DNA of 33,539 nucleotides from Actinomycetales bacterium (GTDB lineage Bacteria; Actinomycetota; Actinomycetes; Actinomycetales; Kineosporiaceae), in NCBI GenBank assembly GCA_012719445.1, contig JAAYAH010000153.1, positions 1 through 33,539 on the forward strand. Reading direction: 5' to 3'. A program made the position numbers and the translations under genes. Of this stretch, positions 6,756-22,522 are shown in pieces. Each line of letters starts with the position of its first letter. Position 1 is the stretch's first letter. The notes below the pieces were generated by a model that worked only from the letters and a program-made list of their open reading frames with translations, did no database searches and was not told the origin of the DNA.

Positions 6756-6767
6756 GAGAGCGCTCTC
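6756..6767. promoter_or_regulatory. LacI-type operator upstream of the sugar ABC operon
   Basis: GAGAGCGCTCTC is a perfect 12-bp palindrome 42 bp upstream of the substrate-binding protein ATG. The AGCGCT core is that of CebR-like LacI operators (consensus around GGGAGCGCTCCC), and the LacI gene lies at the end of the same cluster. That this LacI protein binds here is inference. Confidence 0.75.
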
Positions 6768-10486: not shown

Positions 10487-11569
10487 ATGACGGCGCGGCG
10501 AGGTCGGCAGGGGGGCCAGGGGGCCTCCACGGACGAGAAGGCCCGGCGGACCGGTCGCCGGCTGCCCACCCTGGAGACCGTGGCAGCGGTCTCGGGCTTC
10601 TCCCGGGCGACCGTCTCCCGAGTGATCAACCAGTCGCCGACGGTGGCACCGGAGATCCGCGAGGCCGTCGAGGCGGTCATCGAGCAGCTCGGCTACGTGC
10701 CGAACCGGGCCGCCCGCTCCCTGGTGACCCGGCGCACCGGGTCGATCGCCCTTGTCGTGCGCGAGCCGGTGGAGTTCGGGGTCACCGACTCGTACCTGTC
10801 CGGTGTCATCGTCGCCGCGAGCCAGTCCCTCGCCGGGACCGGGGTGCAGCTCGCGGTGATGATGGCGGCCAACGACACGGACCACGCCAAGCTCGGCAGC
10901 TACGTGCGTAGCGGGCACGTGGACGGCGTCCTGCTGTTCTCGGTGCACGACGACGACCCGTTGCCCAGCCAGCTCGTCCGCGCCGGGGTGCCCGTCGTCC
11001 TCGGTGGCCGTCCTGCCGTGCCGCTGGCCGGCGGCAGCTACGTCGACACCGACAACCGCGGCGGTGCCGAGGCTGCGGCCGGGCACCTGCTCGGCCTCGG
11101 CCGCCGTCACCTCGCGATGATCTCCGGGCCGCCGGACATGACGGCGGCCGTCGACCGGCTGGACGGGTTCCGGAACGCCCTGCGCCGGGCGGGCCAGGCT
11201 CCTCCCACCGTCGCCTACGGCGACTTCACCCGCGCCGGGGGGGGGACCGCCATGCGGGAGATCCTCGACCGGCTCCCCGAGGTCGACGCCGTCTTCGCCG
11301 CCAACGACCTGATGGCCCTGGACGCCCTGCGTGCCCTGCGCGAGGCCGGCCGCCGGGTCCCGGACGACGTGGCCGTGGTCGGGTTCGACGACATCGACCT
11401 CGGCCGGTTCGCGGAGCCGCAGCTGACCACGGTGCACCAGCCGATCGCCGAGCAGGCCACGCTGATGGTGCGGATGGTCCTCGAACAGATCGAGGGCCAG
11501 CCGCCGCGGGAGCCCACCGTCCTCCCGGTCCACCTCGTGGTCCGCGGCTCGACCACCTCGACCGGGTAG
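10487..11569 (+). CDS. LacI-family transcriptional regulator of the glucan locus
   Basis: This 360-residue repressor has an N-terminal LacI helix-turn-helix at about residues 26-75 (TLETVAAVSGFSRATVSRVI, with hinge GYVPNRAARSL). A periplasmic-binding-like sugar domain follows, with typical FAANDLMALDALRALREAG and DVAVVGFDDIDL motifs. A basic, Gly-rich extension of about 25 residues precedes the DNA-binding domain. The gene follows the importer and converges on the phosphorylase gene. Palindromes with AGCGCT cores upstream of the importer, the glucanase and lacI itself are the probable targets. The inducer is likely a beta-glucan-derived oligosaccharide (inference). Confidence 0.92.
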   Translation: MTARRGRQGGQGASTDEKARRTGRRLPTLETVAAVSGFSRATVSRVINQSPTVAPEIREAVEAVIEQLGYVPNRAARSLVTRRTGSIALVVREPVEFGVTDSYLSGVIVAASQSLAGTGVQLAVMMAANDTDHAKLGSYVRSGHVDGVLLFSVHDDDPLPSQLVRAGVPVVLGGRPAVPLAGGSYVDTDNRGGAEAAAGHLLGLGRRHLAMISGPPDMTAAVDRLDGFRNALRRAGQAPPTVAYGDFTRAGGGTAMREILDRLPEVDAVFAANDLMALDALRALREAGRRVPDDVAVVGFDDIDLGRFAEPQLTTVHQPIAEQATLMVRMVLEQIEGQPPREPTVLPVHLVVRGSTTSTG

Positions 11570-11650: not shown

Positions 11651-14600
11651 TCAGCTCCCCGGTCCTCTTCCCGCCGCGTCGTGGCCATGACCGGGCACCA
11701 GCACCTCGATCAGCCGGACGCGTCCGTCGCGGCGGAAGACGGCGGCGCTCAGGTCCGGGTCGAGCACCCCGCCGGGGAACGCGAGCCGGCTGCCGTCGCC
11801 CTGGTGCACCGTCACCAGGGGGCCGTCCCCGGTCGGCACCGTCGCCCCGGGACCGCCGCCGTTCCGGTAGAGCACGGGGACCTGGCAGAACGTGAAGGCC
11901 AGCGCGTCGGCCGGGACGGGCAGGCTGCACCGGTGCCCGGCGACGTCGGGGTAGTCCAGCCGGGTCGGTGCGGCGGCCCACTCGTCCTCGGCCAGCAGCG
12001 GCGGCACGAAGACGATCCGGCCGTCGCGGACCAGCAGCCCGAGCTCGCCGAACCTGGCCAGGATCGACTCCTTGACCTGGCCGGTCATCCCCGGCTGCCG
12101 CGCCCCGCCGCCGGCGGGGGTGTGCGAGTGCGGGTCGGTGGGGAACGCCCCGAACTCGGCGCAGGACCTGGTGAAGCCCAACCCGGCACGGACGTCGCGG
12201 TACCGCTGCGCGAGGCCGGTGGCGACGTGCTCCGGCGCCCCCTCGTCGACCGCCCGCTGGTAGGTCTCCAGGACGGTGAGCTGCAGCTTGGCCACCATGT
12301 GCCAGTAGACGCTGCCGAGGCCCTCGTAGCCGAAGAAGGACCCGGACCGACCGGTGAACTCCCGGTGCCGGAACACCTGCTCGTAGATCTCCAGGAGCGT
12401 CTCGCCGTCCCGCCGGACGGCCCGGGCGAGGGCGGGGTCGGCGCCGAGCCGGGTCAGCGCCAGCCGGACCTCGCCGGCGTTGGCCATCCCGCCGGCGAAG
12501 TGGTGGTCCCCGGTGACGTCGCGCACGACGACGCTGCGGTCACCGCGCTCGACCAGCAGCCCGATCAGCGGGCACCGGGCGACGGTCTCCGGCGGCAGGA
12601 CGTTCCGCTCGACGAAGCCGGGCAGCGACCGGTCGGGGTAGAGCTGGTAGGTGCCGCGGTCCGGCCGGTAGAGGCTGCTCGCGCGCAGTGCCCGCAGCAC
12701 CTCCAGTGACTCCTCGGTGCTCAGCAGGCCGCTGGCCAGGACGGCGACCTGGCCCTCCAGCATCAGCGGCAGGTGGCGGACCGAGGCGCTCTCGGGCTTG
12801 AGGTCGAGCAGGTTGTAGGAGTGGAACAGGCCGTCCGGGCGACGGTTGGCCCGCAACGCGTCCTCCACCACCGCCAGGGCCGTGTCGAGCAGGGCGGTGA
12901 CCCGGGCCGCGGGGACTGTGGCGGACCGGCCGCCCGGCCCGGCGTAGACCCGGTCCCGGAAGTCGCTGCCGAGCCCGCCGAGGCGGTCCATGACCCGGCG
13001 GCGGTCGTCGTCGTCGCGGACGTCGCCGAGCGAGGACAGGACGTCGAGCACGCCGTCCAGCAGGTCCGCGACCTCCTCGCCGAGCGTGATCCCCTCGGCG
13101 GGGACGGCCAGCAGGTCGGGCAGGGCCACCAGGTAGCTGCGCAGCTGGGCCAGGGTGACCACCGAGACCCCCTGCCCGACCAGCGCGTTGTTCGCGTCGT
13201 TCCACTCCGGGCGCTGGGTGTTCATCCAGATCCCGGCGCCGGGGACCAGGTTCACCAACTTGGCCAGCAGCAGGGTCAGCAGCTTCTCCACCCCGGTCAC
13301 CCGGATCAGCTCGCCGTCGGCGTCGGAAAGCAGCCTGCCGTCGGCGCCCTCGCGCATCACCCGCCGGTCGGACGCCTCCGCCCGTGCCGCGTCGTAGTCG
13401 ATGGTCGACCGGGGGTCGGCGACGATCTGCTCGTGGCTCCGGATCCGGTACGGGACGTCGGCGTGGGTGAACACCCGGCGGTGCAGCAGACCGGTCACCC
13501 GGCCTGGGTGGAAGCGCTGCGCCAGCCGCAGCAGGGCGAGCAGGTAGACGATCTGGTGGTCGCTCCAGTACCCGATGTTCGACCACGGTTCGTCCGGTGC
13601 CGGGCGTTCCCACGCGATCCCGCTCCGGGAGATCCGGTACGGGTTGTAGCCGTCGACCGTCGTCGCCGACAGGAACGTGGCGACCATGGACTCCAGGTAC
13701 TCGGGGAAGGACCAGCCGAGGGCCTCCCAGTTCTGGAAGACGTCCCGCCAGTTGCCCTGGAAATCCGGCTGCGGCACCCCGCCGTCCCGGTACGGCGCGA
13801 TCTCGAAGGTGTTCCACGGCCTGCTGGGGTCGCCGTGCCGGCGTCCCCAGGACAGCGGGAGGTACTCGGTGAGCAGCCGGTGCAGGTCCGGGTCCTCGAC
13901 CAGGGCCGCCCGCCGGTACAGCTCGACGGCGTGCAGTCTCGGGGGCAGGTCGGCCAGCCGGCGCGCGCAGCGGCGGGCGGTCCGGGGGCTGCGTTGCTCG
14001 ACGAAGGCCCGCATGTCCGCCCCGCGCACCGTGTAGCCCTCCGCGAACGTCCCGCCTCGCATGGCGTTGAACAGCACGTTCGCGAGGTGGTGGGCCGCGG
14101 TGGCCTCGTGGCCGCAGGCCTGGGCGCCGTCCGCCCTGCCGACCAGGTCGACCAGCGCGTCCCGCCCGGCCGTCAGGTCGGCGGTCAGGTCGCGCGCCAC
14201 CTCGTCCGGGGCCCGCAGCCGTTCCCTCAGGTCGACCACCGCGGCGGCGTCCAGCCCGGTGTCGGCGACGATCCGCCAGCTGCGTTCCTCCGCGCCGTCG
14301 AGCACCAGCTCCCGGCCCACCAGGTAGGCGCCCCGGCGACCACGGGTCTCCCGCTGCCCGTGCAGCTCGCCCGTCGTCCGGTGACCGTCCACCGCGTCGG
14401 CGGAGAGCAGCACCTGGGCACCCGGCGCGTCCAGCCGCCAGCACACGGTGGCGAGCAGCGCCTCCCGGGGCTCGGCGCGGTCGGTGAGCTCCGAGCCCAT
14501 CCAGTACGTCGCCAGCCCGGTGCCCGGGTCCAGCCTCGCGCGCTTGTAGGCGTCGATCAGCACGCTGTACTCCTGCTGCGCCCGGACCCCGACCCCCGCG

Positions 14601-15127
14601 GGCAGCAGGTTCAGCAGCCCGTCGAGGACGGAGAGCTCGTGCCGACCGCCGTCGAGAGCCGCCAACCGGGACTCCCGGACGACGCCGAACGTGCCGCTGG
14701 TCCGCCAGACCTCCCGGAACCGCAGCCCGAGGTCCTCCCGGACCTCCTCCAGGATCACCGTGCTGCTCAGGGCGTCCTTGTAGGCGGCCCGGGAGACTCG
14801 CGGATCGGTGCGTCCGGCGGGGGAGAGCGGCTCCCACCGGACCCGGCGGCCGTCCGACCGCCGGGTCCGGACCACGGTGACGCCTCCGGTGACGCCGGCG
14901 GTGTCCGCGAGCTTGTCCTCGGTGACGTAGGGGAACAGGGCCTGGTCCGGCCGGCCGCGCCCCGCGGTCAGTCCCCCGGAGCTGGAGAGGAACAGCCACA
15001 TGTCGTGCACCCCCACCACCGGGACGAGGAACGGCGGCAGGCGGTGGTAGCCGCTGATCCGGTGGTACCGGACGCCGTCGATCCCGACGTGGTCGTCGTG
15101 GACGCCGGGGGGTGGGGCGACATGCAT
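11651..15127 (-). CDS. Large glycoside phosphorylase, beta-1,3-glucan phosphorylase-like (GH94/GH149/GH161 relative)
   Basis: The 1158-residue protein has no signal peptide, so it should be cytoplasmic. The centre carries the GH94-type (alpha/alpha)6 signature. It has GNWRDVFQNWEALGWSFP (about 458-475), GYWSDHQIVYLLAL (519-532) and RPEWNDANNALVG (639-651), where D644 is the expected general acid. The length of about 1150 is far above cellobiose phosphorylases (about 800) and fits GH149/GH161 beta-1,3-oligoglucan phosphorylases. These release glucose-1-phosphate from laminarioligosaccharides with inversion. The gene begins 47 bases after the GH16 glucanase, in one operon, near a CUT1 importer. 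The choice between GH149 and GH161 is inference. The ATG at 15127 has only a weak Shine-Dalgarno (GAGAGG). Confidence 0.75.
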   Translation of the reverse strand: MHVAPPPGVHDDHVGIDGVRYHRISGYHRLPPFLVPVVGVHDMWLFLSSSGGLTAGRGRPDQALFPYVTEDKLADTAGVTGGVTVVRTRRSDGRRVRWEPLSPAGRTDPRVSRAAYKDALSSTVILEEVREDLGLRFREVWRTSGTFGVVRESRLAALDGGRHELSVLDGLLNLLPAGVGVRAQQEYSVLIDAYKRARLDPGTGLATYWMGSELTDRAEPREALLATVCWRLDAPGAQVLLSADAVDGHRTTGELHGQRETRGRRGAYLVGRELVLDGAEERSWRIVADTGLDAAAVVDLRERLRAPDEVARDLTADLTAGRDALVDLVGRADGAQACGHEATAAHHLANVLFNAMRGGTFAEGYTVRGADMRAFVEQRSPRTARRCARRLADLPPRLHAVELYRRAALVEDPDLHRLLTEYLPLSWGRRHGDPSRPWNTFEIAPYRDGGVPQPDFQGNWRDVFQNWEALGWSFPEYLESMVATFLSATTVDGYNPYRISRSGIAWERPAPDEPWSNIGYWSDHQIVYLLALLRLAQRFHPGRVTGLLHRRVFTHADVPYRIRSHEQIVADPRSTIDYDAARAEASDRRVMREGADGRLLSDADGELIRVTGVEKLLTLLLAKLVNLVPGAGIWMNTQRPEWNDANNALVGQGVSVVTLAQLRSYLVALPDLLAVPAEGITLGEEVADLLDGVLDVLSSLGDVRDDDDRRRVMDRLGGLGSDFRDRVYAGPGGRSATVPAARVTALLDTALAVVEDALRANRRPDGLFHSYNLLDLKPESASVRHLPLMLEGQVAVLASGLLSTEESLEVLRALRASSLYRPDRGTYQLYPDRSLPGFVERNVLPPETVARCPLIGLLVERGDRSVVVRDVTGDHHFAGGMANAGEVRLALTRLGADPALARAVRRDGETLLEIYEQVFRHREFTGRSGSFFGYEGLGSVYWHMVAKLQLTVLETYQRAVDEGAPEHVATGLAQRYRDVRAGLGFTRSCAEFGAFPTDPHSHTPAGGGARQPGMTGQVKESILARFGELGLLVRDGRIVFVPPLLAEDEWAAAPTRLDYPDVAGHRCSLPVPADALAFTFCQVPVLYRNGGGPGATVPTGDGPLVTVHQGDGSRLAFPGGVLDPDLSAAVFRRDGRVRLIEVLVPGHGHDAAGRGPGS

Positions 15128-15174: not shown

Positions 15175-16611
15175 TCAGTGACCGAAGGTGAACCAGTTGA
15201 CGTTGACGAAGTCGGCCGGTTGGCCGCTGGTGAAGGTCAGGTAGACGGTGTGGGTGCCGGTGACGCCCGCGATGTTGGCCGGGACGGTGCGCCAGCTCTG
15301 CCAGCCGCCGGTGTTCGCGATCGCGAAGCTGCCGACCGGGGGCGAGGTCGGGCTGTCGAGCCGCACCTCCACCAGCCCGCTGGCCCCGCCCCCGGCCCCG
15401 GAGGCGACCCGGGCGACGAACTGCCGGGCCGGGGTCGGGCCGAAGTCGACCCTGTCGTAGCGGGTCCAGTCCCCGGTGGCGATCCAGCCGATGTTCTGCC
15501 CGCCGCCGGAGTCCTGGGTGGTCTCGGTCCCGACGCCGTTCTGGGCGTCGAAGGTCTCCGCTTGGATGGCCGCGTAGGCGTTCCGGGAGCCGGCGGGCGG
15601 CGTCGTGGTCGTCGTGGTTCTGGTCGTGGTGGTGGTCGTGGTCGTCGTGGTTCTGGTGGTCGTCGTGGGGACGGCGCCGTTCCTGCTGTACACCGCGACG
15701 TAGTCGACGAGCATCGGGCGACCGGAGACCGTGGCCGCGGTCGGGGTGGCGTACCCGGCCACGCCGTTGGGGAAGCCCCCGCCCATCGCGACGTTGAGCA
15801 GCAGGAAGTACCCCTGGTGGCCGGTCATGTTGGTCCAGTGCGGCTCACCGAGCTGGTTCTGGTCGACCGTGTGGAAGAGCTGGCCGTCGACGTACCAGCG
15901 CAGTTGCTGCGGGCTCACCCCGGCGTCCCACTCGAAGCGGTAGGTGTGGAACGCCGACTGGCAGGAGGACGAGGGGCAGGCCCTGCTGCCGCCCAGCCCG
16001 TTGGTCTCGTTGCACGGACCGCCCGGGTTGACGCCGCAGTGCAGCACTCCCCAGACCTGGTTGACCCCGTTGACGTTCTCCATCACGTCGAACTCGCCGA
16101 TCATCGGCCAGTTCTGGTAGTTGCCCCGGTAGGGCGCGCCCAGCGCCCAGAACGCCGGCCAGTACCCGAGGGCCTCGCTGCCGGTGACGTTCGGCATCTG
16201 GATCCTGCCCTCGATCCGCAGCACCCCGCCGCTCGGCGGCCGGAAGTCGCTGCGTCGGCTCTCGATGCGCGCCGAGGTCCAGTTCCCCGCGGCGTCCCGG
16301 ACCGGGGTGATCCGGAGATTGCCACCGCCGTCCCTGGCGAGGTTGGCGGTGCTGTTCGTGTAGGTCTGGATCTCGCCGGTGCCCCAGTTCGCCGGGCCGC
16401 CCGGGTAGGCGGTGCCGGTGTCGATGATCCAGTCGGTGGACGACGGAAGGCTGTTCGCCGGGCCGGTGAAGTCGTCGCTCCACACCAGGTTCCAGCCGGT
16501 CGGGGTCGCGGGGACGGCAGCGGTCGCCGGGTGCACGGCGACGACGGTGACGGCGACGGTTGCCGCCGTCCCGAGGATGAGCAGATGACGGACGGGTCGG
16601 TGGGATCGCAT
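15175..16611 (-). CDS. Secreted GH16 endo-beta-1,3-glucanase with CBM6
   Basis: This 478-residue secreted enzyme starts at ATG 16611, preceded by AGAGAGG. The signal peptide is about residues 1-32 (ends HPATAA). The GH16 domain spans about 37-311, with catalytic motif GEFDVMENV: E173 nucleophile, D175, E178 acid/base. The extra residue in ExDxxE is the beta-bulge form of laminarinases. A Thr-rich linker (about 315-338, nearly all Thr) leads to a C-terminal CBM6-like module (346-478, IQAETFDAQNGVG and TGDWTRYDRVDFG). It should cut beta-1,3- or mixed beta-glucan outside the cell. It heads an operon with the phosphorylase and has a long AGCGCT-centred palindrome upstream. Confidence 0.9.
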   Translation of the reverse strand: MRSHRPVRHLLILGTAATVAVTVVAVHPATAAVPATPTGWNLVWSDDFTGPANSLPSSTDWIIDTGTAYPGGPANWGTGEIQTYTNSTANLARDGGGNLRITPVRDAAGNWTSARIESRRSDFRPPSGGVLRIEGRIQMPNVTGSEALGYWPAFWALGAPYRGNYQNWPMIGEFDVMENVNGVNQVWGVLHCGVNPGGPCNETNGLGGSRACPSSSCQSAFHTYRFEWDAGVSPQQLRWYVDGQLFHTVDQNQLGEPHWTNMTGHQGYFLLLNVAMGGGFPNGVAGYATPTAATVSGRPMLVDYVAVYSRNGAVPTTTTRTTTTTTTTTTRTTTTTTPPAGSRNAYAAIQAETFDAQNGVGTETTQDSGGGQNIGWIATGDWTRYDRVDFGPTPARQFVARVASGAGGGASGLVEVRLDSPTSPPVGSFAIANTGGWQSWRTVPANIAGVTGTHTVYLTFTSGQPADFVNVNWFTFGH

Positions 16612-16733: not shown

Positions 16734-16755
16734 GATGAGAGAGCGCTCTCTCATC
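16734..16755. promoter_or_regulatory. Perfect 22-bp palindromic LacI-type operator upstream of the GH16 operon
   Basis: The palindrome is perfect over 11+11 bases, centred between 16744 and 16745, with inner sequence GAGAGAGCGCTCTCTC (16737-16752). It shares the GAGAGCGCTCTC core with 6756-6767 upstream of the importer. This is the strongest evidence that the glucanase-phosphorylase operon and the importer operon form one LacI regulon. Confidence 0.8.
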
Positions 16756-17041: not shown

Positions 17042-18304
17042 TCAGTTCGCGGTGCAGGAGGTCACCGTGAGGCCCGAGGGAGATCCGGAGCCCTGGAAGC
17101 CGAAGGAGGTCGTCTGACCGGACGCCAGGATGCCGTTGTAGGTCTCGTTGCGGACCTGCACGGTTCCGGTGCTCCCGCTGCGCACGCCGTTCCAGCTCCC
17201 GGTGATCGTGGTGCCGGCGGGCAGGGCCAGGGTCACCTGCCAGCCGCTGAGGGCCAGGTCCGCCCGCACCGTGACGGTGCCGACGAAGCCGCCCTGCCAG
17301 GCGTTCGACGTCGCGTAGGAGGCGGAGCACGCTCCGCCTCCTGAGCCGCCCGACGACGTGGTCGTGGTCCGCGTGGTGGACGTCCCCGTGGTGGCGGTCG
17401 TCGTGGACGTCGGGGTCGGTCCGCTGGCCAGCGGGCAGGTGCTGGAGTAGCGGGAGACGCTTCCGGAGACGCTCGGACCGGGGCAGAGGAACTGCTCGTA
17501 GCGGGTGTCGCCGTCGACGAAGCGCTTCAGCCAGGACACAAACATCATGGCCACGTCGGCATTGGCTGACTGGGGGAAGAAGTGGCTGGCTCCGGCGAGC
17601 TCGAGGTAGGCCTTGTCCGGGGTGGTCGGGAGGCTGGTGTAGAAGGGGACGGCGTGACTGGAGACCGCGGCGATCGTGTCGCTCTGGCCACCGATGATCA
17701 GGGTGGGGACCCGGTTACCCGACCAGTTCTTCGTCGTGTTCCACGGGGCGAGGGGGACGGCGGCCCTGAGACCGGGCCGGTCCTTGGCGGCCTCGAGGGT
17801 TCCGCCGCCGCCCATCGAGTGTCCCGCGACGGCCAACCGTGAGGCGTCGATCCGGCTGCGCACCGAACTGGTCCTGGTCAGGTGGTCGAGGGCGGCGAGC
17901 AGTTCGTCGCCGCGCTGCGCGGGCTGGTCGGAGGTGGTGACGGTGTCGATGATGAAGACGACGAACCCGTGCGAGGCGACCCGGGGGCCGAACCACGCCA
18001 GGCTCTCCTTGGTTGCCGTGTAGCCCGGGCACATCGCGACGGCGCCGAACGTCCCGTCGGAGGTGGAGGTCGGGTAGTACACGGTGCCGCCGCCGAAACC
18101 GCTGACGGCGGAGCGGGCAACGGTCGTGCTCGTGGTGGCGTACGGGCCGCTGCCGGCCCGGACGCTGCTCAGGGTGGGGTTCGGGCCTCGTTGGTAGGGG
18201 TTGTCGGCCGCCTGGACGGCGGGTGTCACCGCCATCCCGAGGCTCACGGCCGCTGTCGCGGCCACGGTCAGCGTGACGAGGCGGTTCGCTCTGCGTGGAT
18301 GCAC
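17042..18304 (-). CDS. Secreted polyester hydrolase (TfCut/PETase-like) fused to CBM2
   Basis: The 420-residue secreted protein has a signal peptide at 1-32 (ends PAVQA). The catalytic domain (about 35-293) opens with DNPYQRGPNPTLSSVRAGSG, the hallmark of Thermobifida-type cutinases and PET hydrolases. The triad is S163 (GHSMGG), D209 (GGQSDTIA) and H241 (GASHFF). The oxyanion tyrosine is Y95 in PGYT, and W188 fits the aromatic-clamp position. C274 and C290 match the conserved terminal disulfide. A Thr/Ser linker (about 297-325) leads to a CBM2-like module to the end, with three Trp (AWQGGF, SGWQV, GSWNG). The GTG at 18304 has AAGGAG 9 bases upstream. Polyester substrates such as cutin are expected. 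PET activity is untested inference. Confidence 0.9.
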   Translation of the reverse strand: MHPRRANRLVTLTVAATAAVSLGMAVTPAVQAADNPYQRGPNPTLSSVRAGSGPYATTSTTVARSAVSGFGGGTVYYPTSTSDGTFGAVAMCPGYTATKESLAWFGPRVASHGFVVFIIDTVTTSDQPAQRGDELLAALDHLTRTSSVRSRIDASRLAVAGHSMGGGGTLEAAKDRPGLRAAVPLAPWNTTKNWSGNRVPTLIIGGQSDTIAAVSSHAVPFYTSLPTTPDKAYLELAGASHFFPQSANADVAMMFVSWLKRFVDGDTRYEQFLCPGPSVSGSVSRYSSTCPLASGPTPTSTTTATTGTSTTRTTTTSSGGSGGGACSASYATSNAWQGGFVGTVTVRADLALSGWQVTLALPAGTTITGSWNGVRSGSTGTVQVRNETYNGILASGQTTSFGFQGSGSPSGLTVTSCTAN

Positions 18305-18824
18305 GTCGACACACTCCTTGCGGGGGACGGACTGCGGTCGTGGCCCGGCGCTCCGGGACGCGCCGGGGGTCGGGGTCCCGTGGGGTCGCCCGACGGGCAG
18401 GTCGCCGGGACTCCCCACGCCGACACGGGTGACCCGATGATGACGGGAATGCCGGCTCGGGGGATCCGTGGAATCACCGGTGGTCACGGTTCCGTGCGGT
18501 CCTGCACCACCGGTCGGGAACCCGGGCAGGTGGGTGTCCGCATTCCTCACCCGTCATCCCGGGTGCATGTCGGATATCACCGGAAATGCTCGTGAGGCGT
18601 TTCCTTCCACGACGCGACGCCGCCGAACGGTGACGGGTGCGAAATCACCTGCCCGACACCGGTGGTTTCCCCGATGGCTGCGGACGACATCTCCGCTTGT
18701 ATCGACGGCACCCGGTCCCGTGAACACCTTCGGCGTCGGTGCGCACCGGGCCGAGGGCCGGGACGGAATCCGTCGAACACGAGCGAACTCGCGTTCCTCC
18801 GGTATCGCTGGGAAGGAAGAACAC
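18305..18824. other. Divergent intergenic region between two polyesterase genes
   Basis: This 520-base gap separates the minus-strand CBM2-polyesterase and the plus-strand cutinase. It holds one copy of a 50-bp element (18433-18482) that recurs at 23011-23060. No gene or hairpin of note is supported, and no clear sigma-70 promoter pair was found. The open frame running into the cutinase gene from 18468 is read-through, since the cutinase signal peptide starts at 18825. Confidence 0.5.
18433..18482. repeat. 50-bp dispersed element, copy 1
   Basis: This is 44/50 identical to 23011-23060 in the same orientation. It includes GGGGGATCCGTGGAATCACC (18459-18478) and ends in CACCGGTG. It lies 129 bp upstream of the CBM2-polyesterase start. 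Conservation of position upstream of minus-strand exported-protein genes suggests a shared cis element (inference). Confidence 0.7.
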
Positions 18825-19487
18825 ATGTCTCGGACACTCACCCGCCTGCGGGCGCTCGGTGCGGTCGGTCTCGGGGTCGTCGCCCTGGTGGCGGGCACCC
18901 TCACCGTCGCTCCGACGGCCTCCGGCGCCTCGTGCAGCACCGTCGAGGTGATCTTCGCCAGGGGGAGCGGGGAGCTGCCTGGCCTCGGAATCGTTGGGCA
19001 GCCGTTCGTGACCGCCATCAGGTCCGGCCTGGCCGGACAGTCCGTCAGTTCGTACGCCGTGAACTACGCTGCCGCCCTGGACCAGTCCAGTGCGGGGGCC
19101 GGGGCGACGGACATGACCAACCGCGTCCGCAGCGTCGCGGCGCAGTGCCCGAACACGAGTTTCGTCCTCGGCGGCTATTCGCAGGGTGCGAGCGTGACGG
19201 ACATCTCCATCGGGATCCGCACCATGCTGGGGACCGGCCAGACGATTCCCGCCAACCTCTCGTCGAGGGTGAAGGCGGTCGTCGTGTTCGGGAACCCGCT
19301 GCGGCTCTACGGCCAGACCATCAGAACCGCGAGCCCGACCTACGGCTCCAGGGCGATGGACATCTGCAACTCCGGCGACCCCGTGTGCGGTGCCGGCTAC
19401 AACATGATGGCCCACCTGATGTACCAGTCCAACGGTTCCACCACGCGCGGTGCCCAGTTCGCCGTGAGCAGGGTACGCGCGGGCTGA
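18825..19487 (+). CDS. Secreted cutinase (CE5 family)
   Basis: The 220-residue secreted esterase has a signal peptide at about 1-35 (ends PTASGA). The mature start SCSTVEVIFARGSGE is the CE5 cutinase/Culp signature. The nucleophile is S119 in GGYSQGA, the acid is D185 in GDPVCG, and the base is H197 (MAHLMY). Cys pairs (C37/C108 and C181/C188) match the fold. ATG 18825 has GGAAGGAAG just upstream. It should hydrolyse cutin-like polyesters or short-chain esters outside the cell. It diverges from a second, structurally unrelated polyester hydrolase. A hairpin terminator follows at 19530-19571. Confidence 0.92.
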   Translation: MSRTLTRLRALGAVGLGVVALVAGTLTVAPTASGASCSTVEVIFARGSGELPGLGIVGQPFVTAIRSGLAGQSVSSYAVNYAAALDQSSAGAGATDMTNRVRSVAAQCPNTSFVLGGYSQGASVTDISIGIRTMLGTGQTIPANLSSRVKAVVVFGNPLRLYGQTIRTASPTYGSRAMDICNSGDPVCGAGYNMMAHLMYQSNGSTTRGAQFAVSRVRAG

Positions 19488-19582: not shown

Positions 19583-22522
19583 CTACGGGGGATCCGACGC
19601 GTACCCGGCCAGTTCGACCCGCGACCTGATGCCCAGCCGGGTGAAGATCCGGCCGAGGTGGTACTCGACCGTGCGGACGCTCAGGAAGAGCCGGCCGGCG
19701 ATCTCCTGGTTGGTCGCCCCGGACACGGCGAGCTGGGCGATCTGGTGCTGCTGCGGGGTGAGCGCCCGGTCGAGGGGCGTCGGATCGACGGGCGTCGACG
19801 GTGCGGGGACGCGTTCGCCCGCGGCCCGGAGGTCGGTCCGCGCCTGGTCGGCCCAGCCGCCGGCGCCCATCCGCTCGAAGGTCTCCAGGGCGGCCTGCAG
19901 GAGCGGGCGGGCCGCGCGGGGCTGCCGCCGGCGGCGGAGCCGCTGTCCGTGGAGGAGGTCGGTGCGGGCGCACTCGAGGTCGGAGTCGGCGAGCAGGTGC
20001 AGCCGGTGGGCCTCCTGGAAGCGTTCGTCGGCCTCGGCGTCGTCCTCGGTCACCAGCGCCCGTGACCGGCAGGCGAGGGCCGTCCACCCCGGGTTGCCGG
20101 TGCTGCGGGTCCAGGTCTCGAACCGGGCGAGCGGGCCGAACACGTCGTCGGTCTCCCCGGCCTTGGCCGCGGCCTCGACCAGGTAGCAGAACAGGGCCGT
20201 CTTCACGATCTGGTGGCCAGGGGGTGCGAGCGGGCCGGCCAGCCGGTCCAGCCGGTGGAACGCCCGGACGACGTTGCCGTCGATCAGGTCGACGACGGAC
20301 AGTGCCCAGTCCGCGATCATGGACGTCGGGCTCGGTGCCGTCTCCCGGTGCCGGACGTGCTCCCGCAGCTCCCGGAGGTGGGCCAGGGCGGTGTCCCGGT
20401 CACCGGCGACGGCGGCCAGCACCGCCAGCATGGCCAGGTGTTCCCGGATGAGGTCCTCCTGCCCGTTGGCCCGGGCGAGCTCCCGCGCGTCCAGGACCAG
20501 GGCTGTCGCCTCGGGGTACCTGCCGAGTGCGAAGTCGGCGAGCGCGCCGAGCCAGACCGCCTGGGGGACGACCGCCTTCTCGCCGCGTTCCCGGGCGAGG
20601 GCCACCGCCCTGGCCGCCATCCGGCGGGCGGCGACGTCGTCACCGACGAGGATCCCGGCGTAGCAGGCGCGCAGCAGGTCGTCGGTGCTCTCCGTGTCCT
20701 CGGCGAGGGCGAGAACCCGGCGCAGGGAGGTCACCCCGTGGACGAGGTCCCCCTCGTGGACGGCGGCCATCCCGTTGAGCTGCTCGAAGGCGAGCTCCTC
20801 GTCCGGTGACTCCTCCGGCCGGCGCAGGGTCTCCGCTCTCCGTGCCAGCTCGGGCAGCAGGTCCTCGTGCCCGAGCCGGTAGACCGCGCTGCCCATCCGC
20901 AGCAGGGTCGTCAGCGCCAGCTCACGGTCGGTCCTGCCGAGCTCCCGGGAGATGGCGAGCAGCCGGTCGAAGGCCGGGTCCCGGGAGCCGGTGGTGAGGT
21001 CGATCTCGCTGCGGAGCACCCGCGCCGCCGTCCGGATCCGGGCCGGTGTCGCCTGGGTGCCCACCTCCTCCAGCAGGAGCCGGGCCCGGTGCAGGCGCCC
21101 GCCCAGCCAGGCCCGCTGCGCGGCGAGGAGGCGGTACTCGTCCGCGGTGGCGGGTTCGGTGGTCAGGCGGGCGGCGCGCTCCAGCGCCAGGGCCGCCCTG
21201 AGGTGGTCGCCGGCGTCCTCGTCCGCGGCCTCGGCGAGCTGCGCGGCCAGGTGCGGGTCGGGCCCGGGTACCGACAGCGCCCGGTGCAGGAGGGAACGCG
21301 GCGAGGGCGGTGAGGTGGACAGACACCGGGCGAGGACGGCGTGCGTCGCCCGGCGGTCGGCCACCGTCGCCGCGTGGTAGACGACCGTGCGCAGGAGGGG
21401 TGGCCGGAGCCGGACGCCGTCCGGCCGGACCTCGACGATCCCCGCCTCCTCCGCCGGCCGGAGGTCGGCCAGGTCCAGCCCGGCGGCCTCGGCAGCCCGG
21501 GCGAGTTCGTCCTCGGACAGCCGCTCGTCGGCGGCGACGATCAGCAGCAGTCGCCGGGTGGTCGCAGCGAGCGGCTCGACCAGGCGGAGATGGGTCCGGC
21601 ATGACCGGCTGTGCCTCGGGAGAGTGGCGGGCAGAGACGCCGTTCCCCGGCCGGGCGCGGGAAGGGACCGCGCCAGGTCGAGGAGGCCCTGGGGGTTGCC
21701 GCAGCCGAGGTCCGCCAGGGCGCCGGCGAGGTCCCCCGGCACGTCGTGGGCCTGCAGGAGCTCCAGGCTGCTGCGCTGGTCCAGTTCGGTGAGCCGCTGG
21801 CGGGGGATGCCGCCCAGCCTGTCGGGCGGCGGTCTGTCGCGGTCCGGCTCGGTCGCGGGGGAGTGGTCGTCCGGCAGCCGCCCGGTGGGGACGTCGTCCT
21901 CCGCGAACAGGACGGCCAGCCGATCGTGGTCGCAGCGTCGGGCCACGAAGGCCAGGGCGTCCAGTGAGGGCCCGTCCAGCCACGAGGCGTCGTCGACGAG
22001 ACAGAGCACGGGACCCGTGGCGGCCAGCCCGCGCAGGACCGCGAGCAGGTCGAGCGGAGGCGACGCGGGGGTCGTGCCGGTCGCCATGGCGCGGGCCAAC
22101 CGGGCACCCTCCTCCGGGGTGCTCCTGACGATCTCCTCCCGCACCGGGTCCAGCAGCCGGTGGAGCCCGGCGAGCGCCAGCGTCCGTTCCACCGCCACCC
22201 CGGCGGTCGACAGCACCCGCCACCCGGCCGCCGCCGTCGCTGCCCGGCGCAGCAGGGCGGTCCGGCCCGTTCCGGGGCTGCCGTGCACGACCAGCCCGCC
22301 CCCGGTGCCGTTCGCCGCGCCGGTGAGCAGCGCCGTCACGGCGGCGAGCGCGTGCTCACGCCCCAGCAGCCGGTTCGCCCGGGACGGCTCTGTGCTGCTG
22401 GCCTCTGTGTCGCTGGGCTCTGGACGGGTGCGTTCGGCGTCGGTGGGTTCGGAGCTACTGCCGGCGGAGGGCGTGCCGGGAGGAGCGGTGAACCCCCGCG
22501 TCGGGGGGTGCGGCTCCGGCAT
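19583..22522 (-). CDS. LAL-type LuxR-family regulator (AAA/STAND ATPase + HTH)
   Basis: The 979-residue regulator opens with a P-loop region at about 53-300, with a Walker-A-like GSPGTGRT (81-88) and Walker-B-like VLCLVDDASWLD. A long alpha-helical, TPR-like sensor region follows. The C-terminal LuxR helix-turn-helix is at about 908-970 (LTPQQHQIAQLAVSGATNQE, SVRTVEYHLGRIFTRLGIRS). The canonical Walker A lysine is Arg (R87), which is unusual and may weaken ATP hydrolysis. The first 45 residues are Pro/Ser/Thr/Glu-rich and could be non-native if a later start is used. It lies between the polyesterase pair and the small lipoprotein. Targets are unknown. Confidence 0.88.
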   Translation of the reverse strand: MPEPHPPTRGFTAPPGTPSAGSSSEPTDAERTRPEPSDTEASSTEPSRANRLLGREHALAAVTALLTGAANGTGGGLVVHGSPGTGRTALLRRAATAAAGWRVLSTAGVAVERTLALAGLHRLLDPVREEIVRSTPEEGARLARAMATGTTPASPPLDLLAVLRGLAATGPVLCLVDDASWLDGPSLDALAFVARRCDHDRLAVLFAEDDVPTGRLPDDHSPATEPDRDRPPPDRLGGIPRQRLTELDQRSSLELLQAHDVPGDLAGALADLGCGNPQGLLDLARSLPAPGRGTASLPATLPRHSRSCRTHLRLVEPLAATTRRLLLIVAADERLSEDELARAAEAAGLDLADLRPAEEAGIVEVRPDGVRLRPPLLRTVVYHAATVADRRATHAVLARCLSTSPPSPRSLLHRALSVPGPDPHLAAQLAEAADEDAGDHLRAALALERAARLTTEPATADEYRLLAAQRAWLGGRLHRARLLLEEVGTQATPARIRTAARVLRSEIDLTTGSRDPAFDRLLAISRELGRTDRELALTTLLRMGSAVYRLGHEDLLPELARRAETLRRPEESPDEELAFEQLNGMAAVHEGDLVHGVTSLRRVLALAEDTESTDDLLRACYAGILVGDDVAARRMAARAVALARERGEKAVVPQAVWLGALADFALGRYPEATALVLDARELARANGQEDLIREHLAMLAVLAAVAGDRDTALAHLRELREHVRHRETAPSPTSMIADWALSVVDLIDGNVVRAFHRLDRLAGPLAPPGHQIVKTALFCYLVEAAAKAGETDDVFGPLARFETWTRSTGNPGWTALACRSRALVTEDDAEADERFQEAHRLHLLADSDLECARTDLLHGQRLRRRRQPRAARPLLQAALETFERMGAGGWADQARTDLRAAGERVPAPSTPVDPTPLDRALTPQQHQIAQLAVSGATNQEIAGRLFLSVRTVEYHLGRIFTRLGIRSRVELAGYASDPP

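Follow-up and report, generated by a model that had tools for sequence, protein, structure and literature searches.

Several groups have fused carbohydrate-binding modules (CBMs) to PET hydrolases by hand; does nature offer such a fusion on the TfCut2 catalytic type, and if so, where did the module come from and what might the enzyme do? We addressed this question at a divergent gene pair in a 33,539-nucleotide stretch of DNA (hereafter, the window) from a Kineosporiaceae genome (Actinomycetales bacterium, assembly GCA_012719445.1, contig JAAYAH010000153.1). A sequence-only reading had described one gene as a PET-hydrolase-like enzyme carrying a CBM2 and the other as a CE5 cutinase, and had proposed that the two together attack plant cutin on the cellulose-rich plant wall; the outer positions that it gave for the pair, 17042 and 19487, mark where the two stop codons end. 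Our analyses confirm that the minus-strand gene encodes a TfCut2-type PET-hydrolase-like domain, a linker and a CBM2 (Table 1), a natural solution to what has elsewhere been built by design.

Architecture and catalytic type of the fusion protein

From the N to the C terminus, Pfam matches and the translation place a PETase domain (PF12740, E = 8.9 × 10−115, 383 bits against a cut-off of 28), a 29-residue Thr-rich linker and a CBM2 (CBM_2, PF00553, E = 1 × 10−17, 64.7 bits against a cut-off of 24), both Pfam matches being far above chance and bearing out the earlier assignments of the alpha/beta hydrolase subfamily, the linker and the C-terminal module. The individual residues claimed for the catalytic domain (S163, D209, H241, W188, C274, C290 and PGYT at residues 93–96) are all present in the numbering of the 420-residue protein, and the Ser-Asp-His triad, PGYT, Trp and C-terminal Cys pair presumably have the roles that they have in the TfCut2-type family. 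The CBM2 at the C terminus departs from the single-domain layout that is usual for, but does not define, this type. With the NCBIfam model for BdeA (NF051441, bis(hydroxyethyl) terephthalate hydrolase), the protein scored 463.8 bits, under the equivalog cut-off of 520, and was therefore not assigned to BdeA. The genome holds one strong gene of this family, a second PF12740 match (positions 37–145) being barely at the cut-off (28.1 bits).

Table 1 Features of the locus, with positions in the window
Feature	Position	Strand	Details
PETase–CBM2 fusion gene	17042..18304	-	420 aa plus stop; GTG start at 18304, AAGGAG upstream; coding to 17045, stop 17042–17044
Probable signal peptide	18209..18304	-	Residues 1–32, VQA end before ADNPYQ; by eye from translation
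PETase catalytic domain (PF12740)	17432..18214	-	S163, D209, H241, W188, PGYT, C274/C290
Thr/Ser/Gly linker	17336..17422	-	Residues 295–323
CBM2 domain	17045..17335	-	Residues 324–420; aromatics W336, W371, Y389
Divergent intergenic region	18305..18824		520 bases; no CebR-type box, no sigma-70-like site
CE5 cutinase-family esterase	18825..19487	+	220 aa plus stop (coding to 19484); ATG start at 18825, GGAAGGA upstream; S119, D185, H197
Large LuxR-family regulator gene	19583–22522	-	Past CE5 gene, converging on it
14-bp perfect inverted repeat, 6-base loop	16879..16912		Between PETase stop and GH16 gene; may be a terminator, though it has no T run
GH16 endo-beta-1,3-glucanase with Thr-rich linker and CBM6	15175..16611	-	Neighbour, outside fusion
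GH149 1,3-beta-glucan phosphorylase	11654–15127	-	1158 aa; NCBIfam 1312 bits against a cut-off of 1150

Structural comparison agreed with the cutinase fold proposed from the sequence. An AlphaFold model with a mean pLDDT of 62 (good over most of model residues 1–150 and middling to 240) retrieved by Foldseek PET hydrolases, cutinases, a lipase and related alpha/beta hydrolases (50 listed matches, 57–67% identity). Among these, PET40 (8a2c, Amycolatopsis), 7yko (a Thermomonospora curvata hydrolase), 1jfr (a Streptomyces exfoliatus lipase) and the Thermobifida cutinases 4cg1, 5zoa and 5lui match the fold of the catalytic domain at 59–67% identity over the aligned part; these chains of 260–282 residues comprise approximately one catalytic domain, whereas the window protein adds a linker and a CBM2. 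Beyond model residue 242, CBM2 included, the model is poor (pLDDT about 27–39 in the CBM2 blocks) and residues are present in the window row only, so we make no structural claim for the CBM2. By sequence, the nearest solved chains were PET40, 8ety and kin (deposited as polyethylene terephthalate hydrolase and titled ancestral PETases) and 7ykq (a hydrolase titled as from Thermomonospora curvata), and the best 80 of 494 relatives among GTDB loci were actinobacterial (Actinoplanes, Amycolatopsis, Streptomyces and others; 61–69% identity).

Distribution of modules among PETase domains

The window protein was placed in a tree of 188 distinct PETase domains (FastTree, LG, SH-like local supports; TfCut2 itself is no tip), which were obtained from 202 PETase-matching reading frames by dropping 14 exact duplicates and none for length. 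The domains came from searches of the window's family, order and phylum, from the best 80 of the 494 relatives, and from the family of a further genome (G595) and a fusion query of the G595 order; for the order, phylum, G595-family and fusion-query searches, they mainly cover the matches that had a locus. Proteins were called modular if they had a C-terminal extension of at least 60 residues, with the addition of one protein (L044) that was the sole match when N-terminal parts of at least 60 residues (142 of the 188) were screened for CBM2, CBM13 and GH10 only (phmmer, E 0.01). Because the search of the G595 order used a fusion query, it favours modular proteins, and the counts given here show the distribution of modularity over the tree, not its frequency.

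Within the window's order, some PETase match was found in 66 of 396 genomes, many of them weak, and none of the 31 other family and order loci that were read out had a C-terminal module. L044, from the same family (49% identity), has its PETase domain behind a GH10 xylanase and a middle domain. In genome G002 of this family, the GH10–PETase is encoded by an 819-residue frame (L215:3914–6370, + strand), the middle domain of which is CBM2-like by eye and gave no Pfam match even at E 10. The search across the phylum, with matches in 9 of 396 genomes at E 1 × 10−20, led to G595, which has both PETase–CBM2 and PETase–CBM13 genes. In the family of G595, PETase was found in 223 of 300 genomes, the long frames fetched from it showing no further C-terminal module; the fusion query of its order matched 68 of 249 genomes and returned, among 30 loci (seven of them checked by Pfam), L216–L219 (PETase–CBM2) and a PETase–CBM13 series. 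The ten PETase–CBM13 (ricin-type) proteins (L164, L220–L222, L224–L228 and L231), with tails either checked by Pfam (L164, L220, L221, L226 and L231) or, in the other five, named by tail likeness, are probably of the kind reported in PMC12455559.

Altogether, 16 of the 188 proteins were modular: the window protein, ten with CBM13, four with CBM2 and one behind a GH10 xylanase. All the others fall together in a single clade (local support 0.999), in which no bare member was sampled, and all 15 have a one-residue insertion that gives a 15-residue PGY-to-WxG motif, in contrast to the 14-residue form of the window protein (14 residues in 168 of the 188 domains, 15 in 15, pattern unmatched in five). 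At the W188 column, the modular clade has Tyr (8), Gly (4) or Phe (3), whereas the window protein has Trp, as do 171 of the 172 bare domains (Tyr in the other). The window protein thus lies outside this clade, lacks its insertion and keeps the Trp; it groups with bare actinobacterial PETases, branching close to the base of a 170-member group. Because no other protein among the 173 that fall outside the modular clade is modular, its fusion is best read from the tree as a separate event. The PETase–CBM2 proteins L216–L219 and the GH10–PETase L044/L215 share PF12740 with a CBM2 or a xylanase in one protein, but differ in their identity to it (48–55%), their insertion, the absence of a W188 equivalent, their clade and their Pro-rich linkers. 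The sequence-only statement that TfCut2-type enzymes normally lack a binding module agrees with this picture: on the window's side of the tree, 172 of 173 domains lack a C-terminal module, and these have no CBM2, CBM13 or GH10 match in the screened N-terminal part either.

How new the fusion is depends on what it is compared with. As in the window protein, a natural carbohydrate-binding module sits on the PET hydrolases of PMC12455559 (ACS Catal 2025), which are described there as falling on a single tree branch and for which cutin or suberin near carbohydrates was proposed; their module is a CBM13, whereas that of the window protein is a CBM2, outside the modular clade found here, and 'CBM2' is absent from the main text of that report. 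In the PET hydrolase study of Erickson et al. 2022 (PMC9772341), enzyme 407 has a natural CBM35, and accessory domains are described for groups 2–4, whereas groups 5–7, including by its number the T. fusca cutinase 703 (group 7), share a highly conserved core. Engineered cutinase–CBM fusions (PMC6536475 and PMC9917269) embody the same idea, but are man-made and were built for PET adsorption. A TfCut2-type enzyme with a natural CBM2 was not reported among the matches listed, which cover few subscription papers and are weak evidence of absence. The natural module is real on the TfCut2 type, but PET-hydrolase domains in general have been known to carry such modules, and the fusion is an uncommon natural variant of a known architectural idea rather than a new kind.

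The CBM2 and its likely source

The nearest solved relatives of the CBM2 are 6f7e (named cellulose binding protein) and 1exg. All three aligned aromatics of the binding strip are present (W336, W371 and Y389), at positions that we take to be on the surface; at the third, 1exg has Trp, the four other PETase-linked CBM2s all have Tyr, and 28 distinct CBM2 places sampled from the window's own genome have Tyr (21) or Trp (7). This genome (5.42 Mb in 283 contigs) has 92 CBM2 matches, including the window's and some contig-end fragments, which looks very high for an actinobacterium; three Streptomyces strains are reported to have five, two and four (PMC12388512).

Likeness to these local copies is the main evidence on origin. 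Among the sampled copies of its own genome, the best match to the window CBM2 has 59% identity, against 44–49% for the four other PETase-linked CBM2s, although the own-genome set was picked by likeness to the window and the comparison therefore leans that way. In a CBM2 tree, it groups with own-genome copies (support 0.907 with a copy at L021), and the clades that contain it, with up to 24 members, include none of the four other PETase-linked CBM2s. We checked ten own-genome hosts, selected from the nearest ones, and each is either a plant-wall enzyme or of an esterase type: a polysaccharide deacetylase, two GDSL esterases (of which one has CE2_N), an RGL11 rhamnogalacturonan lyase, two PHB-esterase-like proteins, one GH26 and three GH5; Thr/Arg-type linkers like that of the window protein were found on these hosts. 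The likeliest origin suggested by these comparisons is that a local CBM2 was shuffled onto a TfCut2-type domain.

Neighbouring genes and the role of the enzyme

The CE5 gene is present and divergent as claimed, with the named S119, D185 and H197 and with its start 520 bases from that of the fusion gene (PF01083, E = 3.1 × 10−46, 157.9 bits against a cut-off of 25.9). Its solved relatives (best E = 7.8 × 10−19) are mostly cutinases and include the acetylxylan esterase 1bs9. Elsewhere in the genome there is a further CE5-type match of 48 bits, along with two fragments at contig ends. Among the 187 other distinct PETase loci, examined in flanks of up to 5 kb in 80 and mostly 1.5 kb in the rest, a CE5 gene lies near two (L078, approximately 3.9 kb; L086, approximately 2.3 kb). 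A repeat scan found no obvious operator common to the PETase and CE5 genes. Control of the locus by CebR was rejected, with no box in the window at up to three mismatches from what we take to be the CebR pattern; sigma-70-like promoters and T-tailed terminators were not found between 15000 and 19700, a null result that is uninformative because the DNA is so GC-rich.

On the other side of the fusion gene lies a beta-1,3-glucan locus, comprising the GH16 and GH149 genes (the latter protein without a Pfam match), followed by a LacI regulator (10487–11566), a permease and a solute-binding protein. The GH16 gene follows the PETase gene in the same orientation, but 430 bases and a 14-bp hairpin separate the two, making an operon unlikely. 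A 22-bp perfect palindrome (16734–16755) lies ahead of the GH16 gene; GAGAGCGCTCTC occurs exactly at 16739–16750, before this gene, and at 6756–6767, before the gene for the solute-binding protein. With two mismatches allowed, this 12-bp core was counted seven times in the window, not above chance (reached by 11 of 100 shuffles), and the palindrome and its core are a possible operator of the LacI regulator. The beta-1,3-glucan locus adjoins the PETase and CE5 genes and is not clearly part of the same unit.

Together, these features suggest, with good though incomplete confidence, a probably secreted serine esterase of the TfCut2 type (type I) that gained a C-terminal CBM2 from the pool of its own genome, the likeliest role being ester hydrolysis while bound to the plant cell wall. 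The signal peptide would export the enzyme, the W336/W371/Y389 strip of the CBM2 would bind crystalline cellulose, and the 29-residue linker would let the catalytic domain sweep ester polymers that coat or decorate it, with cutin, suberin and esters on hemicellulose as candidates. Ser163 would attack the ester carbonyl, Asp209/His241 would serve as the relay, and the oxyanion hole would be formed by the PGYT Tyr together with the residue that follows Ser163, roles that we assume from the enzyme family. The GH10 xylanase on a PETase relative of the same family is a separate link to the plant cell wall; by contrast, the beta-1,3-glucan neighbours, which suit a fungal wall or callose no less than cellulose, count against this reading, as do the poor model of the CBM2 and the report that certain CBM2 modules have xylan or chitin as their ligand (PMC12388512).

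Two alternatives concern the substrate. It is possible, if on the unlikely side, that the enzyme is mainly a hemicellulose or lignin–carbohydrate esterase, anchored by its CBM2 at ester-substituted xylan and with polyester as a side activity: half of the ten own-genome CBM2 hosts are deacetylase or esterase types (the deacetylase, the two GDSL and the two PHB-esterase-like proteins), and a relative carries its PETase behind a xylanase. Against this, the catalytic domain has the identity to PET hydrolases and cutinases given above for the 50 listed structures, and it keeps W188, which is missing from every one of the 15 other modular PETases, among them the GH10-linked protein. The dedicated divergent cutin-degrading pair of the sequence-only reading is doubtful to a slightly greater degree. 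Adjacency, divergence, good ribosome sites on both genes and the mostly cutinase relatives of the CE5 protein make it a reasonable guess, but one without specific support: the CE5 family also holds acetylxylan esterases, no obvious operator common to both genes emerged from the repeat scan and, because the pairing recurs at just the two loci noted above and the remaining neighbours make up a beta-1,3-glucan locus, the pair is unproven. Compared with this pair, ester hydrolysis bound to the plant wall is the better founded proposal.

The remaining alternatives, which concern the fusion itself, are both very improbable. An assembly chimera formed in the repetitive Thr-rich linker might be suspected in a draft of 283 contigs in which several CBM2 matches reach contig ends, but the reading frame is uninterrupted, none of the 28 sampled places exceeds 59% identity to the CBM2, and the longest exact DNA match between window positions 17045–17500 and 33 own-genome loci (some overlapping, covering part of the genome) is 22 bases. 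Adaptation of the CBM2 to plastics would draw on reports that CBM2 modules can bind PET and that W68Y in the CenA CBM, fused to a cutinase, raises binding capacity (PMC6536475). The third aromatic of the window module is a Tyr, and no tie of the organism to plastic was found in the present analysis. Y389, we assume, corresponds to CenA W68, but Tyr is the usual residue at that site in the genome's own modules, with Trp in the rest, and plastic adaptation was rejected on this ground.

These observations are compatible with a wider view, which we advance tentatively and at somewhat less than even confidence, in which esterases of the PETase fold are accessory enzymes of plant-wall breakdown, and modules that bind or cut the wall have become joined to them on two or more occasions: at least once within the modular clade (CBM13, CBM2 and GH10; Trp absent) and once, independently, in the TfCut2-type window enzyme, which keeps the Trp. 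Plant polymers have been described as natural PETase substrates, with lignocellulose input selecting for putative PETases (PMC13234336), and here the CBM2, together with the GH10 xylanase on a relative, points to the plant cell wall as the substrate context. As a natural fusion with an evolved linker, the window enzyme can be tested as a ready-made construct. If this wider view is true, the native substrate of TfCut2-type PET hydrolases would be an ester polymer touching cellulose, which natural fusions such as this one would allow to be tested directly.
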